From Pontibacillus chungwhensis (GTDB lineage Bacteria; Bacillota; Bacilli; Bacillales; BH030062), in assembly GCF_030166655.1 (NCBI RefSeq), contig NZ_CP126446.1, forward strand, positions 434,001 to 498,000: DNA of 64,000 nucleotides, given 5' to 3'. Both the position numbers and the translations under genes were made by a program. Every line of letters begins with the position of its first letter. The first letter of the stretch is position 1. Below the pieces are notes generated by a model. The model saw nothing but the letters and a program-made list of their open reading frames with translations, was not told where the DNA came from and ran no database searches. This document shows, one piece after another, positions 13,224 to 47,760 of the stretch.

Positions 13224-13470
13224 GTGGGGACGCTCGTAAAACTATAGTCAGGGGTGTCTGGGGAACGGGGAGACTCCTACGGGAGAGAGAGGTAGACGAG
13301 ACCCCGGAATGAGCGTAGCGATTGAGGAGGAACATATAAGGAAGCGGAAGTTCGACTAAAACCGTCACGTCCTGTGACAACGTCGAACGACCCCACCTCG
13401 TGTGGGGCCCGTGGAAAGCGAGTCGTTCCCCAGACACCCCAACCTCTCATCAAACATAGCGTTCCCAACC
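13224..13470 (-). repeat. Long-hairpin repeat element, copy 1 (inverted orientation, with insert)
   Basis: The core 13251-13440 has exact inverted ends, GGGGTGTCTGGGGAACG and its complement. Inside are the conserved blocks GACTCGCTTTCC and GGAGTCTCCCCGTTCCCC, here on the minus strand relative to the other three copies. An outer stem (GGGACGCT with AGCGTTCCC) encloses unpaired 15-18 base strips. About 60 extra bases with their own small hairpins replace the middle. See copies at 29496, 33904 and 61194. Confidence 0.8.
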
Positions 13471-15174: not shown

Positions 15175-16212
15175 ATGTGGAATTCGAATGGGTATTATGA
15201 TCCTTATCAAATTCAAGCTCCTTATGATAACCAATTACGACAAGGATGGCAGGGAGGGAATGTGCCCTATCAACAACCTTATTATGAACCTTCAACAACC
15301 TATGGGTACCAGCCTCCTGTAGAGCCGTATACAGAACCTGCTTATCGGGCCAGCTGGAAGTCATGGGAAGACTTAGGTTCCCCGCCAAGAGGAATGAAGG
15401 GCGCACCTGCTGTGGCTTCCTGGCAGCCTAATCGTTTGGACTGCTTCGTGCGGGGCGAGGATAACGCCATGTGGCACAAATGGTGGGATGGTTCGCGCTG
15501 GAGGGAATGGGAGAATCTCGGCGCCCCACGAGGCGGGCTAAGAAGTTATCCGGCGGCTGTATCATGGGGTGCCAATCGAATTGACTGTTTCGTACGTGGT
15601 AGAAATGACCGCATGTGGCATAAGTGGTGGGATGGTTCACAGTGGAGAGGTTGGGAAGACCTTGGCGCCCCTCCTAGAGGGATGAAAGGCGCACCGGCAG
15701 TAGCTTCCTGGCAGTCGGGACGCCTGGATTGCTTTATTCAAGGTGAGGATAATAATATGTGGCACAAATGGTGGGATGGCGCCACTTGGAGTCAATGGGA
15801 AGATCTTGGCTCTCCGCAAGGTGGATTACGTGATGCTCCAGGTGCTGTATCATGGGGACCCAATCGAATTGACTGTTTCGTACGTGGTCGTAACGACAAA
15901 CTGTGGCATAAGTGGTGGAACGGGGCCGCTTGGAGCGAGTGGGAAAATCTTGGTGCCCCGCGTGGAGGGTTTGAAAATGCTCCGGCAGCGTCCTCCTGGT
16001 CATCGAACCGACTGGATGTCTTCGTCCGCGGAGACAATAATAGCTTGTGGAAGAAGACATGGAAAGCGACAAAGTGGAGTGATTGGAAGGACCTTGGCTC
16101 TCCTCAAGGTGGCGTCCGTTCAAGTCCGGGCGCGGTATCCTGGGAAAGAAAACGAGTCGATTGCTTCGTAAGAGGAAGAAACGACAACATGTGGCATAAG
16201 TGGTATTCCTAA
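15175..16212 (+). CDS. DUF346/PLL-type beta-propeller lectin-like protein
   Basis: 345 residues. Residues 1-57 are rich in Tyr, Pro and Gln (YDPYQIQAPYDNQ, YQQPYYEPST), a composition common in spore coat proteins. Six repeats of about 48 residues follow, each with W-x-x-L-G-[AS]-P, a short Gly-rich turn, SW, R-[LIV]-D-[CV]-F-[VI]-[RQ]-G and [ML]-W-H-K-W. This is the DUF346 repeat of the Photorhabdus PLL lectin, a fucose-binding seven-bladed propeller. Repeat 5 has lost the HKW motif (KKTW). There is no signal peptide. The ATG follows AGGAGGA. A spore-surface glycan-binding role is inference. Confidence 0.8.
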   Translation: MWNSNGYYDPYQIQAPYDNQLRQGWQGGNVPYQQPYYEPSTTYGYQPPVEPYTEPAYRASWKSWEDLGSPPRGMKGAPAVASWQPNRLDCFVRGEDNAMWHKWWDGSRWREWENLGAPRGGLRSYPAAVSWGANRIDCFVRGRNDRMWHKWWDGSQWRGWEDLGAPPRGMKGAPAVASWQSGRLDCFIQGEDNNMWHKWWDGATWSQWEDLGSPQGGLRDAPGAVSWGPNRIDCFVRGRNDKLWHKWWNGAAWSEWENLGAPRGGFENAPAASSWSSNRLDVFVRGDNNSLWKKTWKATKWSDWKDLGSPQGGVRSSPGAVSWERKRVDCFVRGRNDNMWHKWYS

Positions 16213-16216
16213 ATAG

Positions 16217-16254
16217 AAAAGCCTGCAGCTCTATGTGGAGTAGCAGGCTTTTTT
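16217..16254 (+). terminator. Terminator of the DUF346 gene
   Basis: AAAAGCCTGC and GCAGGCTTTTTT enclose a loop of about 16 bases. Confidence 0.9.
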
Positions 16255-16260
16255 CGTTTG

Positions 16261-16722
16261 TGTGTCTAGAATTCCGGGTCTGACGTCGAGAAAAGAATCG
16301 GCGACGACTAGAATATTGAGCCTGACATCGAGAAAAGAATCAGCGGCGACTAGAATATTAAGCCTGACGTCGAGAAAGCAGCCAGGGACGACTAGAATAT
16401 TGAGCCTGACGTCGAGAAAGGAGTCAGGGATGTCTGGAATGTTGAGCCTGACGTCGAGAAAAGAGTCAGTGATGTCTAGATTTTTGAGTCTGACGTCGAG
16501 AAAGCAGCCAGGGACGTCTAGAATATTGAGCCTGACGTCGAGAAAGGAGTCAGGGACGACTAGAATATTGAGCCTGACGTCGAGAAAGCAGCCAGGGACG
16601 TCTAGAATATTGAGCCTGACGTCGAGAAAGGAGTCATTGACGTCTAGAATCCTGAGCCGGACGACTAAAAAGAAGCCCGTCATGTCTAGAATCAAAGGCC
16701 TGACATCTAGAAAAGCGCATTA
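16261..16722. repeat. 21-bp phased array A (22 units)
   Basis: Units begin with GACGTCGAGAAA or GACGTCTAGAAT (or close variants) followed by nine variable bases. Two unit types alternate, giving a 42-bp higher-order repeat. Unit starts at 16261, 16282, 16303 and onward to 16702 keep an exact 21-bp register. It fills the space between convergent genes. Because 21 is a multiple of three, long but meaningless ORFs run through it on both strands. Confidence 0.9.
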
Positions 16723-16739: not shown

Positions 16740-17180
16740 TTATCGACCCTCTTGAAGGGGAACGATTTGCCCTCTTATTTCACCCGAGAGGTTCTGTTCG
16801 GTGTGAACGTTTACGTATGTTAATTCTTTTTTCATGCAGTCGAGAAGATCGGCAATAGAGTGAATTCCGACGTCATTTTTCACAATGTCTTCATCCTTTA
16901 GGATACCTGTTACCACGCCTTTTTGAGTCGATATTCCATTTTGATTTGGAAGTGTTTCAAGGTCTGCGCCGAATAAGAACGCAACTACGGGGCCGTTCTG
17001 CTCTCTGTTACCAAAATGGATGTGGGCTTGAACAAAATTTTCGATATCTTCTATTTTTAAAACGAATTTAATTTTCGTGTCATGCTTGTTTGAAGCAAAT
17101 TTTGCAATTCCAGATGCATGGGTTTCGACAGGTGGAACTTCATTTTTCCCTTTTAATCGTGCCTTAAATAATTTATCCAT
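16740..17180 (-). CDS. CHRD-domain protein
   Basis: 146 residues forming one CHRD domain, the fold first seen in chordin. Visible signatures are FKARLKGKNEVPPVETHASGIA at the N-terminus, QAHIHFGNREQNGPVVAFLF in the middle and YVNVHTEQNLSGEIRGQI at the end. The His residues in HIHFG and NVHT are conserved in the family. No signal peptide or anchor is present. Function in bacteria is unknown. The start at 17180 follows AAGGAGG and skips 13 upstream codons. Confidence 0.85.
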   Translation of the reverse strand: MDKLFKARLKGKNEVPPVETHASGIAKFASNKHDTKIKFVLKIEDIENFVQAHIHFGNREQNGPVVAFLFGADLETLPNQNGISTQKGVVTGILKDEDIVKNDVGIHSIADLLDCMKKELTYVNVHTEQNLSGEIRGQIVPLQEGR

Positions 17181-17259
17181 ATCAACGCCTCCTTTAGTGA
17201 ACGCTCTTATCTTATTCACTGGGCGCGAGATGGTGTTTGTATATTATAGAAGAGGAGTC

Positions 17260-18060
17260 TTATATGCTTTTTAGAAGTAAATCGACTTCTTCAAGGACAG
17301 CTTCCCAAGCTTCTGTTTTGGTGTCTGTCAGCATAAAATGTTCAGCTTCTGTCAGCTCCACAAACTTCACAAACTCAGCGAGTTCTTCAGCGTGTCGCTG
17401 GTAACGAGAGCTGATTCCAATAGGGACATGGATATCCAATGATCCGTGAATAAGCACATGTGGAACCTCAATAGGAAGTAGTTCAAGAGGTGAAGCTGCT
17501 TGCAGACGCTCCCGTACTTCTTCTGGTTTTCCTTTTAATAAGTCGGCCACCGGGTTGTTGGGTTCTGATCCCATGGACGCGTCTCTGAAATGATGGACAG
17601 TATACATTGTTTCAGGATCTACAACTCCAGCAAGGCTAATGGCTCCTGCAACAGGGTGAGGATTCTCGCAGTAAAGTTCACTAGTCGCAGGAATCTTATG
17701 GCGTCCAGCGAGCCACATAGCTAAATGACCACCAGCTGAATGGCCAATAGTGATCGTTTTGTCTATATCCAGATTATAGTCTTGTGCAAGGTTTTTAACG
17801 TAATCATGAGCCCTTCCAACGTCCAGGAGGGTGTTGGGCCAGGCTCCATCATCTTGTCCAACTCGGCGGTACTCAATATTCCAAGTGGCGTAACCGTGAG
17901 CGGTTAAATCTTCTGCTGCGTCTGTCATGAGTTCTAGTGTAAAGGGTTCTCTCCAGAATCCTCCGTGAATAACAACGGCAACAGGGTGAGGACCTTCTCC
18001 CTCAGGGATTCGAAGTTCTCCGTATTGATCCTTTTGTTCTCCGTAAAAAATTTTCTTCAT
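17260..18060 (-). CDS. Alpha/beta hydrolase (BD-FAE/kynurenine formamidase-like)
   Basis: 266 residues. The oxyanion motif HGGFW is at 32-36, the nucleophile Ser108 in GHSAGG, and the likely acid and base are Asp209 (GSLDIHVP) and His241 (EAEHF). The HGGxW motif and overall length match the BD-FAE-type esterases and the kynurenine formamidase group. No other tryptophan-degradation gene is nearby, so a general esterase or peptidase is as likely. It is cytoplasmic and monocistronic. Confidence 0.85.
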   Translation of the reverse strand: MKKIFYGEQKDQYGELRIPEGEGPHPVAVVIHGGFWREPFTLELMTDAAEDLTAHGYATWNIEYRRVGQDDGAWPNTLLDVGRAHDYVKNLAQDYNLDIDKTITIGHSAGGHLAMWLAGRHKIPATSELYCENPHPVAGAISLAGVVDPETMYTVHHFRDASMGSEPNNPVADLLKGKPEEVRERLQAASPLELLPIEVPHVLIHGSLDIHVPIGISSRYQRHAEELAEFVKFVELTEAEHFMLTDTKTEAWEAVLEEVDLLLKSI

Positions 18061-24178: not shown

Positions 24179-24493
24179 GACGTCTAGAACTGCGATTCTG
24201 ACGGCTAGAAGGCGTCGCGTGATGTCTAGAAAAGAGACACTGACGACGAGAAAGCGTCGCGGGGTGTCTAGAAAAGAGACACTGACGTCGAGAAAGCGTC
24301 GCGGGGTGTCTAGAAAAGAGACACTAACGTCGAGAAAGCGTCGTGTGATGTCTAGAAAAGAGACGCTAACGTCGAGAAAGAATCGCAGGACGTCTAGAAT
24401 AGAAAGCCTGACGTCGAGAAAGCGTCGCGTGATGTCTAGAAAAGAGACTCTGACGTCTAGAAACACTTTGAGACGTCGATATTCTGGCCAGCG
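24179..24493. repeat. 21-bp phased array B (15 units)
   Basis: Same unit as array A: GACGTCGAGAAA alternating with GRTGTCTAGAAA. Starts at 24179, 24200, 24221, 24242 and so on to 24452 are all 21 apart; the last unit slips by one base. The nine variable bases are mostly GCGTCGCGG and AGAGACACT. Located between convergent genes, directly after a terminator. Confidence 0.9.
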
Positions 24494-30414: not shown

Positions 30415-30534
30415 CTTCTTATCCAGAGAGGCGGAGGGACTGGCCCTTTGATGCCCGGCAACCATCAAGTCAATGTAACCATTGACGAGAACGGTGCCAA
30501 TTCCTGCAGGAACTTGATTCCTGGAAGATGAGAG
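30415..30534 (+). promoter_or_regulatory. SAM-I (S-box) riboswitch controlling msrA
   Basis: The S-box core is plain: CTTATCCAGAGAGGCGGAGG, then GATGCCCGGCAACC, then GAACGGTGCCAATTCCTG and closing GGAAGATGAGAG. P1 pairs CTTATC with GATGAG. It is followed at once by a terminator hairpin, so SAM binding should stop transcription before msrA. Confidence 0.95.
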
Positions 30535-40630: not shown

Positions 40631-40930
40631 GGACTTGTGCTGAGGGAGTGGCTCGAGTTTAGGTTGTGGTGGGTCGAGCTGGGGGGAGTGGCTCAAGTTT
40701 TTGATGTGGTGGCTCGAGCTGGGGGAGTGGCTCAAGTTTTTGTGTTGCGACTCAAGCTACAGCGAATTGACTCATACCGGGAGGCGTGTGGCTCATCTTT
40801 TTCGGTTACTGGCTCAAGCATTCAAAATAACAGCTCAAGTTAGAGGAGACTGACTCAGGATTAGGATGAATGACTCTAGTTTGGAGTTCTTGGCTCAAGT
40901 TGCGTGTGGAGCGACTCAAGCCCCTCCCCG
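40631..40930. repeat. Array of RRCTCAAG repeats (about 15 units, 18-21 bp spacing)
   Basis: GGCTCAAG, GGCTCGAG, GACTCAAG or AGCTCAAG recur at 40650, 40671, 40690, 40711, 40729, 40749, 40769, 40790, 40811, 40832, 40852, 40872, 40892 and 40913. Several units continue with a T-tract (GTTTTTG). Spacing varies between 18 and 21. It follows a terminator, like arrays A-C, but the motif differs. Confidence 0.8.
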
Positions 40931-40997
40931 CCCCCTCAGTGTGATGGAGCGTGTCCCGGTCAGTTCGATTCGAAAGAAACTCTATCGGCGCGAGGCT

Positions 40998-43665: not shown

Positions 43666-44256
43666 GTGTATCAACCAAACTATATGCAAATGCCTGGTCA
43701 ACAAGGCATGATGGATCAAGGCAACGGAATGCAAATGCCACAACAAGGCATGATGGATCAAGGGAATGGAATGCAAATGCCTCAGCAGGGCATGATGGGG
43801 CAAGGAAATGGAATGCAAATGCCTCAGCAAGGTATGATGGGGCAAGGCAACGGGATGCAAATGCCTCAGCAAGGTATGATGGGGCAAGGCAACGGGATGC
43901 AGATGCCTCAGCAAGGTATGAATCAAGGGAACGGTATGATGTCCAATCAAGGCATGACGATGAAAGATAAACAAAATCAAGCGAAAAGTCATATGCATTA
44001 CTTTGTGATTATCGAAATGCAAGATGGTTCTCAATATGAAGGGATTATTGATGAAGTAGATAAAGAAAACGTCTATATGCTTGTTCCGATGGGAGAAGAG
44101 GAAGAAGAAGAGTCATCCGATGAACGTCAGTTTGGATATGGTGGCTACGGGTGGTATGGCGGTGGCTATGGTTACCCAAGGCGCTTCCGACGTTTCAGAA
44201 GATATCGCTTCCCATTCTTCGGTATCGGACGTCTGTACTATCCGTTTTTCTTTTGA
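43666..44256 (+). CDS. Met/Gln/Gly-rich repeat protein, probably spore coat
   Basis: 196 residues. Residues 1-100 hold six copies of a 14-residue repeat QGMM[DG]QGNGMQMPQ (42 bp in the DNA). Residues 108-140 form a small Sm-like domain, HYFVIIEMQDGSQYEGIIDEVDKENVYM, and the end is rich in Gly, Tyr and Arg (GYGWYGGGYGYPRRFRRFRR). This domain plus Arg/Tyr tail is common in small Bacillus spore-associated proteins. GTG start after GGGGAGA. The sigma-E-like promoter supports mother-cell expression. The 20-bp palindrome overlaps its stop codon. Confidence 0.75.
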   Translation: MYQPNYMQMPGQQGMMDQGNGMQMPQQGMMDQGNGMQMPQQGMMGQGNGMQMPQQGMMGQGNGMQMPQQGMMGQGNGMQMPQQGMNQGNGMMSNQGMTMKDKQNQAKSHMHYFVIIEMQDGSQYEGIIDEVDKENVYMLVPMGEEEEEESSDERQFGYGGYGWYGGGYGYPRRFRRFRRYRFPFFGIGRLYYPFFF

Positions 44257-47434: not shown

Positions 47435-47760
47435 GACGTTGAGAAAGAGAGCTCGGACGTCGAGAAAGAGAGACCGGACGTCGAGAAAGAGAGCTCAGAC
47501 GTCGAGAAAGAGAGGCTGAACGTCGAGAAAGAGAGGCTGGACATCGAGAAAGCGAGCTCGGAAGTCGAGAAAGAGAGCCAGAACGTCGAGAATGAGAGGC
47601 CGGACGTCGAGAAAGGGAGCCAGAATGTCGAGAAAGAGAGGCTGGACGTCGAGAAAGAGAGCTCGGACGTCGAGAAAGAGAGCCCGGACGTCGAGAATGA
47701 GAGCCTGAACGTCGAAAAAACGAGGCCGAACGTCGAAAAACGGCCACGAATATCTAAAAA
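47435..47760. repeat. 21-bp phased array C (16 units)
   Basis: Nearly homogeneous units GACGTCGAGAAAGAGAG plus four bases; no alternation with the TCTAGAA form except the last unit. Starts from 47435 to 47729 are exactly 21 apart. It fills the space between the nhaC promoter region and the 3' end of mreBH. The translated heptad DVEKES- is a by-product of the period. Confidence 0.9.

Follow-up and report, generated by a model that had tools for sequence, protein, structure and literature searches.

Array A lies between two convergent genes

The window analysed here, a stretch of 64,000 nucleotides of Pontibacillus chungwhensis DNA (434001-498000 of a 4,141,606-bp contig; the second contig measures 31,815 bp), carries a tandem array, named array A, in the gap between two convergent genes (Table 1). 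An earlier note on this DNA had described 22 units in an exact 21-bp register, and this is what we find: unit starts run from 16261 to 16702, and 21/21 intervals are 21 bp. The two alternating unit types that it proposed, forming a 42-bp super-repeat, are also borne out in core and spacer, identity being higher two units apart (0.88 versus 0.57 for adjacent units at the variable core positions, 0.71 versus 0.14 in the spacers). The difference for the core was reached by 0/1000 shuffled unit orders. In TRF the array appears as repeats of 42 bp (9.1 copies) and 126 bp, free of indels (0%), while its 21-bp row is a poor alignment (59% matches, 17% indels) because adjacent units differ. A two-unit pattern allowing up to 3 mismatches occurs at 93 + 77 places in the genome, versus 0 + 2 for the reversed control; the array A pattern is far above chance.

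Two further arrays of the same core family (B and C) and one of a second family lie in the window, array C being on the strand opposite to both its flanking genes. An Rfam search of the window gave two gathering matches, neither at an array, and none at arrays A, B and C.

Table 1. Features of the window (numbered from its first letter) and chromosomal positions of the arrays that share the core of array A
Feature	Position	Strand	Description
Bacillaceae-1 RNA	13340-13406		Rfam gathering match
Upstream neighbour of array A	15175..16212	+	DUF346-repeat protein; stops 48 bp before array
Terminator-like hairpin and T-run	16219..16254	+	between upstream gene and array A; seen by eye, unscored
Array A	16261..16722	+	core GACGTCKAGAAA at unit positions 1-12, then 9-bp spacer
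Downstream neighbour of array A	16740..17219	-	CHRD-domain protein; convergent
Second gene downstream of array A	17260-18060
Array B	24179..24492	+	array A core family; 15 units, 20-bp step before last unit
SAM riboswitch	30416-30534		Rfam gathering match
Second-family array	40650..40932	+	core GGCTCAAGT; 13 units, steps of 18-21 bp, one of 41 bp
42-bp repeat within an ORF	43684-43921		MQMPQQGMMGQGNG-like; coding
Array C	47435..47749	+	array A core family; 15 units
Same-core arrays, chromosome	about 237k (236k), 450k, 458k, 481k, 888k, about 963-964k, 1377k, 1468k, 3807k	+
Same-core arrays, chromosome	366k, 3398k, 3482k, about 3486-3487k, 3540k, 3607k, 3608k, 3622k, 3791k, 3818k	-
3607k array, complement	L019 3249-3626		of the strands folded, greatest predicted stability against shuffles (z -5.0)

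A conserved core and a free spacer at a two-turn pitch

Array A is not a lone minisatellite: the chromosome has 19 or more arrays built on the GACGTCKAGAAA core, array A among them, all with a pitch of 21 bp and rare 20-bp steps. The census model (sequence-only, four units, 37 rows, gapless) returned 17 arrays and a weak stretch at 3807k, where an array of 17 units with a variant core can be made out by eye; a broader model added a worn six-unit array at 366k, giving a total of 19. One match, at 3472k (E 0.28), was judged by eye not to be an array. This census is possibly incomplete, the models being biased to the cores that they were built from, and the scoring in the model searches of the own genome covered, of 621 and 534 first-look candidates, 150 each. 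Exact GACGTCKAGAAA cores number 47 (31 + 16) in the genome, 46 of them within arrays, with 3 + 3 for the reversed control.

Core and spacer were compared over 17 of these arrays, each counted once, with the variant array at 3807k and the later-found one at 366k set aside. Between arrays, identity is 0.75 in the core and 0.29 in the spacer, where 0.26 is expected from spacer composition; within arrays the values are 0.79 and 0.42. Core positions 2, 4, 6, 8, 9, 10 and 11 carry 1.5-1.9 bits each, and all spacer positions carry <0.35 bits.

Of the 343 intervals in the 27 arrays listed for three species, 330 measure 21 bp, 10 measure 20 bp and 3 measure 22 bp, two of the last being artefacts of start coordinates; the chain method used prefers 21 over 20 or 22 in ties. 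The intervals other than 21 bp lie mostly close to array ends. Outside this count stand 1377k, which yielded no interval and has two 20-bp steps, and 366k, which was not included and also has 20-bp steps. The word "locked", which the earlier note had used, thus suits array A and is not absolute across arrays, 13/343 intervals being off 21 bp. Its broader proposal that the register is maintained is well supported, since the pitch is kept at many loci of the genome and in the sister species G005 despite randomized spacers: against 1230 nearest-neighbour substitutions over 373 units stand the 13 off-register intervals, about 1% of substitutions, in a count to which slips of more than one base, which end a chain, are invisible. 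The tolerance of 20-22 bp, together with a pitch of 20-21 bp in arrays with other cores (see below), fits helical phase rather than a length of exactly 21 bp or 7 codons.

Core alternation reaches p<0.05 in 15/23 arrays (10/16 in the own genome, 5/7 in G005). At 3486k the core alternates (p=0.002) while the spacers show almost no alternation, and in five arrays picked afterwards for weak spacer periodicity the combined p for core alternation is 0.002. DNA curvature, another suggestion of the earlier note, comes out weak as the selected property in a wedge model: 21/23 arrays are bent above half of their position-permuted same-period controls, but only 4/23 are in the top 5% (median 0.215).

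Placement of the arrays on the chromosome

Given that dnaA lies at base 1 and that the sign of the GC skew flips from the sample at 2.05 Mb to that at 2.10 Mb, we took the origin to be at 0 and the terminus near 2.05 Mb. The genome-wide count and mapping that the earlier note had called for then place the core on the leading strand in 17/19 arrays (p=7e-4; exceptions 366k and 3807k) and on the origin side, with 19/19 arrays no farther from the origin than 0.72 of an arm (KS p=9e-4) and no array of the GACGTCKAGAAA core being found in the terminus-most 28% of either arm. The origin bias is weaker when neighbouring arrays are merged (p=0.063, 12 clusters). By local GC skew, 8/8 arrays of G005 are on the leading strand, six of them at sites equivalent to own arrays. 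In G012, a near-complete genome of another family, the origin bias of the arrays alone gives p=0.065 and 4/7 placed arrays are on the leading strand, a count that leaves out small clusters such as a four-hit + strand cluster at 3719k, which goes against the leading-strand rule. The genomes G126 and G098 have 8/15 arrays of a TATCRAGAAA core on the leading strand by local GC skew, several being equivalent pairs. Because G012 and G126/G098 follow no such rule, it was dropped as a general law. The refuting case of arrays random in location, named in the earlier note, is answered in part: placement is skewed in the own genome, and elsewhere the skew is less clear. Among seven arrays with other cores, from the scan described below or the window, six are leading by the chosen core strand and one, at 371k, is not; that at 2729k lies in the terminus half.

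With respect to genes, 14/18 arrays lie 3′ of a gene of the same direction (236k was placed in no class). Array C and 3807k oppose both neighbours and 3608k has a 5′-side gene reading away; with a gene that reads away on the 5′ side of these 3/18 arrays, the transcription-linked role offered in the earlier note is not supported as a general rule. At eight of nine convergent sites with the GACGTCKAGAAA core, it is the leading-strand gene that the array follows, the exception being 366k; this count omits 3607k, whose left ORF (118 aa) is doubtful and which would agree. Replication direction fits the own genome better than transcription direction, which we rejected as the cause of array orientation. 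The 30 flanking ORFs scanned, part of all flanks, include 27 with Pfam matches of mixed functions; no replication or partition protein gene was matched among these 30, and no transposase, recombinase or templated-polymerase-type enzyme was linked.

Concerted change of the core in a sister species

Seven congeners were searched with the same model. G005 bears related-core arrays on eight contigs, G006 one two-unit relic, and five bear none by this model, so a GACGTCKAGAAA-core array is dispensable. Six G005 arrays have flanking genes whose sizes and directions match those of A, C, 963k, 1377k, 3486k and 3818k. The equivalence is backed by the identity of a neighbouring protein at A (82%, for the second gene downstream, whose G005 relative is also array-adjacent) and at 963k (95%); at C (C22 in G005), 1377k, 3486k and 3818k it is judged from gene sizes.

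The core of the G005 arrays is a dialect, CACGGCCAGAAA, and at 6/6 apparently equivalent sites the core has shifted towards this form. In 17 own versus 8 G005 arrays, T at core position 5 goes from 0.79 to 0.17 (p 1.3e-4) and C at position 7 from 0.04 to 0.63 (p 5e-5), and the direction is the same at 6/6 equivalent sites, if weakly for position 5 at 963k. Spacers at equivalent sites are 0.22-0.31 identical, no higher than between unrelated arrays.

At the 963k site, the array-free G001-G004, G007 and G008 have one terminator-like hairpin between both genes, and the array species have terminator-like sequence on either array side (both by eye); it is at this one locus that absence in species without arrays is shown. 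In the stretch of G006 beside the relative of array A's neighbour gene, TRF found no tandem repeat.

Other core families and other lineages

Since the model searches were biased to the known core, we ran a core-free scan (9-mers repeated at least 5 times, each spacing taking in its neighbours by design) over 860 kb of the own genome: the window, 398 kb of the terminus half and 398 kb of the origin half. The sampled stretches include L214 and L215, picked for weak matches. Over spacings of 12-33 bp, the scan gave 14 places at 20 bp and the same 14 at 21 bp, 7 at 19 bp, 5 at 22 bp and 0-3 at each other spacing; the 14 places correspond to 11 arrays, one of them coding (2912k). The first census had therefore missed other core families, namely GGCTCAAGT (371k, 475k, 762k, 1129k and 3963k), GCGTCAGAA (1011k) and TGWAGAAAG (2729k). 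The GGCTCAAGT core of the window's second-family array thus occurs at four other sampled own loci, and it is also found in G005 (L185).

In 398 kb of G003, a congener with no GACGTCKAGAAA-core array, 6/6 chains of at least 5 units (5 places) have a pitch of 20-21 bp, as do 20/20 in G126/G098 and 11/12 in G005, in stretches of these genomes chosen because of their arrays. The G003 arrays at L242, L246, L248 and L251 have cores GCTCATA, AGTGAGGAA and CAGGCGGT-like; that at L248 lies within a possible ORF. Six 50-kb stretches of E. coli K-12 (300 kb) gave two chains, of 18 and 24 bp, and none at 20-21 bp, and eleven random 6-kb spots of G012 (66 kb) gave no chain of 5 units. For four-unit chains the peak at 20-21 bp is weaker: 13/17 in the own origin half and window, 4/15 in the own terminus half, 8/21 in G003 and 0/3 in E. 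coli.

The broader model matches 13/397 genomes of the order and 1/398 of a phylum sample, the own genome being among both; the matches L079, L081 and L083 overlap, or may overlap, possible ORFs. For the other genomes examined, TRF gives tandem repeats with a period near 20-21, 41 or 42 bp at the matched loci, G006 being the exception. The G012 core is TGTCGAAAATGCACG, in a super-repeat of about 103 bp made of 20-21-bp steps (arrays L139 and L142-L147); it contains TGTCGAA, the Spo0A box. A reading of the cores as Spo0A boxes is not favoured, as the G005 core is without TGTCGAA and a conserved regulator should keep one dialect. G126 and G098 hold short arrays of TATCRAGAAA and of ATGGATAAA, with a pitch of 20-21 bp. 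In L173-L175, L181 and L182 of these two genomes, arrays of ATGGATAAA and of TATCAAGAAA (20-21 bp) share 20-kb stretches, and in L175 and L182 they are about 100 bp apart. Arrays of ACGTCGAGAA and ACGTCTAGAAA, at 21 bp, stand at contig ends of a Bacillota MAG and of a contig from a viral collection. Among 24 matched stretches, two contigs of one MAG (L036 and L047) hold clear arrays; a chain scan of the other 22 found 14 arrays, with a 20-22-bp pitch in L028 (two), L029, L032, L033, L035 and L045, a pitch that the query itself favours.

Alternative explanations

In favour of neutral minisatellites, which would arise wherever slippage or unequal crossing-over happened to act and would take their pitch from some property of replication or repair, are the higher-order repeats and the worn array ends, as unequal exchange typically leaves them, and the differences in presence among species. 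Such a process would place no constraint common to loci, and here core identity between arrays is 0.75 against 0.29 for the spacer; it also leaves unexplained why 19 loci with unrelated spacers have one core, why that core shifts at equivalent sites, why core alternation outlasts spacer similarity at 3486k and why off-register steps are rare. We consider it unlikely. One core at many loci, the species dialects and the patchy spread (13/397 and 1/398 genomes, as above) could also point to a selfish or mobile satellite, spread and re-expanded by a core-recognizing transposase, recombinase or templated polymerase. No recent copying between loci is seen, however, as the mean identity of spacers between arrays is near the composition expectation; arrays stand at apparently equivalent sites in two species, and the 30 flanking ORFs scanned include no linked enzyme of that kind, which together make this origin quite unlikely. 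Iterons, too, have a pitch of about two turns, and chromosomal decoys or iteron-like arrays titrating foreign replication initiators would account for the coexistence of two or more core families in one genome. Yet array B has no match in 72,556 plasmid records and array A none in 50,697 phage records, neither core occurs in the first 15 kb of the second contig (31.8 kb), and nineteen loci exceed the need for titration; a decoy role appears improbable. A plasmid or phage origin was dropped on these negative matches and on the lack of a plasmid match for the same 15 kb of the second contig.

That the arrays act as transcribed repeat RNA or as regulatory 3′ elements would suit the 14/18 arrays downstream of a same-direction gene and two of 16 folded strands that are more stable than shuffles (3607k complement, z -5.0; 3486k array strand, z -2.5). 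The remaining 14/16 strands (8 arrays folded) are within 2 standard deviations of their shuffled controls, arrays A, B and C have no Rfam match, and array C and 3807k oppose both neighbours, so that RNA structure is not supported and this role seems most improbable. As for coding repeats of 7-residue units, 21 bp do equal 7 codons and long ORFs cross several arrays, but no frame is stop-free in all arrays, the 20-bp steps break the frame, and families with 20-bp steps could not code regularly; we rejected this reading as next to impossible.

A proposed row of binding sites for a putative core-reading protein

From the sequences alone, we give roughly even chances to array A being a row of binding sites for a putative sequence-specific DNA-binding protein. 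The conservation of a core at many loci next to free spacers, together with a joint shift of dialect, is the trace expected of a trans-acting reader of the core, and with a two-turn pitch that allows one base of deviation the sites share one helix face; from these two points, a bound cooperative patch is the best-supported mechanism for such a putative protein. In this model the 12-bp core would be the protein site, with the free 9-bp spacer setting distance only, and successive sites, two turns apart on one face, would bring bound copies into contact, so that a nucleoprotein patch builds up cooperatively. The step may comprise two sites, as the 42-bp alternation suggests, with half-sites that differ slightly, and the proteins would co-evolve with each core. 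Because the core shifts at 6/6 equivalent sites, a protein reading it is favoured over pure mechanics.

At least 19 such patches would mark the chromosome outside the terminus, and it is for this reason that we prefer a role in its layout, by anchoring, compaction or spatial marking. This role, which the skewed placement suggests by analogy with the sites of Noc, SlmA and RacA, is the weakest step of the model. A wider reading, which we offer as a possible but doubtful one, is that members of the order carry a counterpart of satellite or centromere DNA: several array families per genome with units of about two helix turns, the core of each family being read by a DNA-binding protein of its own (perhaps paralogous) and drifting in dialect through an arms race or co-evolution and organizing the chromosome outside the terminus.

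In bacteria, tandem repeats are commonly taken for noise or put to use as typing markers, and a limited literature search found no fitting published account of such arrays. The combination of a near-constant pitch, a core common to loci and a core shift across the genome between sister species is the mark that a trans-acting reader leaves. If there is such a reader, the arrays represent an unrecognized layer of chromosome marking, for which the dialects, and the species with and without arrays, would be natural experiments.

Comparison with known systems

Plasmid iterons and the centromere repeats of ParR and TubR are helically phased direct repeats on which a protein complex forms; they lie at a single origin or centromere, beside the gene of their own protein. 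The arrays described here have the helical phase (330/343 intervals of 21 bp), but are spread over the chromosome, with no adjacent replication or partition gene among the 30 flanking ORFs scanned. REP/BIME elements of enterobacteria are likewise intergenic, frequently on the 3′ side of a gene or in the gap of a convergent pair; they are palindromic and lack a fixed two-turn pitch, whereas the arrays are direct repeats at such a pitch. Alphoid satellite with its CENP-B box has alternating tandem unit types and keeps the box while the rest drifts, as the arrays keep their core and drift elsewhere, although it is eukaryotic with 171-bp units and they are bacterial with units of 21 bp.

The ram motif of RacA is an inverted repeat (TGACGCCGTCA-like), unlike the directly repeated core, and TGACGNCGTCA (ram) was absent from the 23 own-genome stretches scanned, arrays A-C included, on which ground we rejected the reading of the arrays as RacA sites. 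A passage of PMC6593407 describes ram motifs in B. subtilis as dense near the origin and bound by an oligomerizing helix-turn-helix protein. For the arrays, the origin-side bias has p=9e-4, or 0.063 with neighbouring arrays merged. For Noc of B. subtilis and SlmA of E. coli, passages of PMC4726725 describe many sites of the same sequence, under-represented in the terminus region, and large nucleoprotein complexes at Noc sites. The arrays resemble these in having many sites of one sequence, scarce near the terminus, with no GACGTCKAGAAA-core array found in the last 28% of either arm. The sites of Noc (14 bp) and SlmA are, however, palindromic, isolated and dispersed, with known proteins, and the arrays are tandem direct repeats.

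A short core that varies genome-wide between species is also described for DNA uptake sequences of Neisseriaceae, whose dialects track the receptor ComP, in a passage of PMC3630211 that gives thousands of copies read by a surface receptor and no tandem fixed pitch. Here, by comparison, 46/47 exact cores are in arrays rather than at thousands of dispersed single sites. By analogy, the dialects of DNA uptake sequences are the closest evolutionary parallel to those of the array cores.
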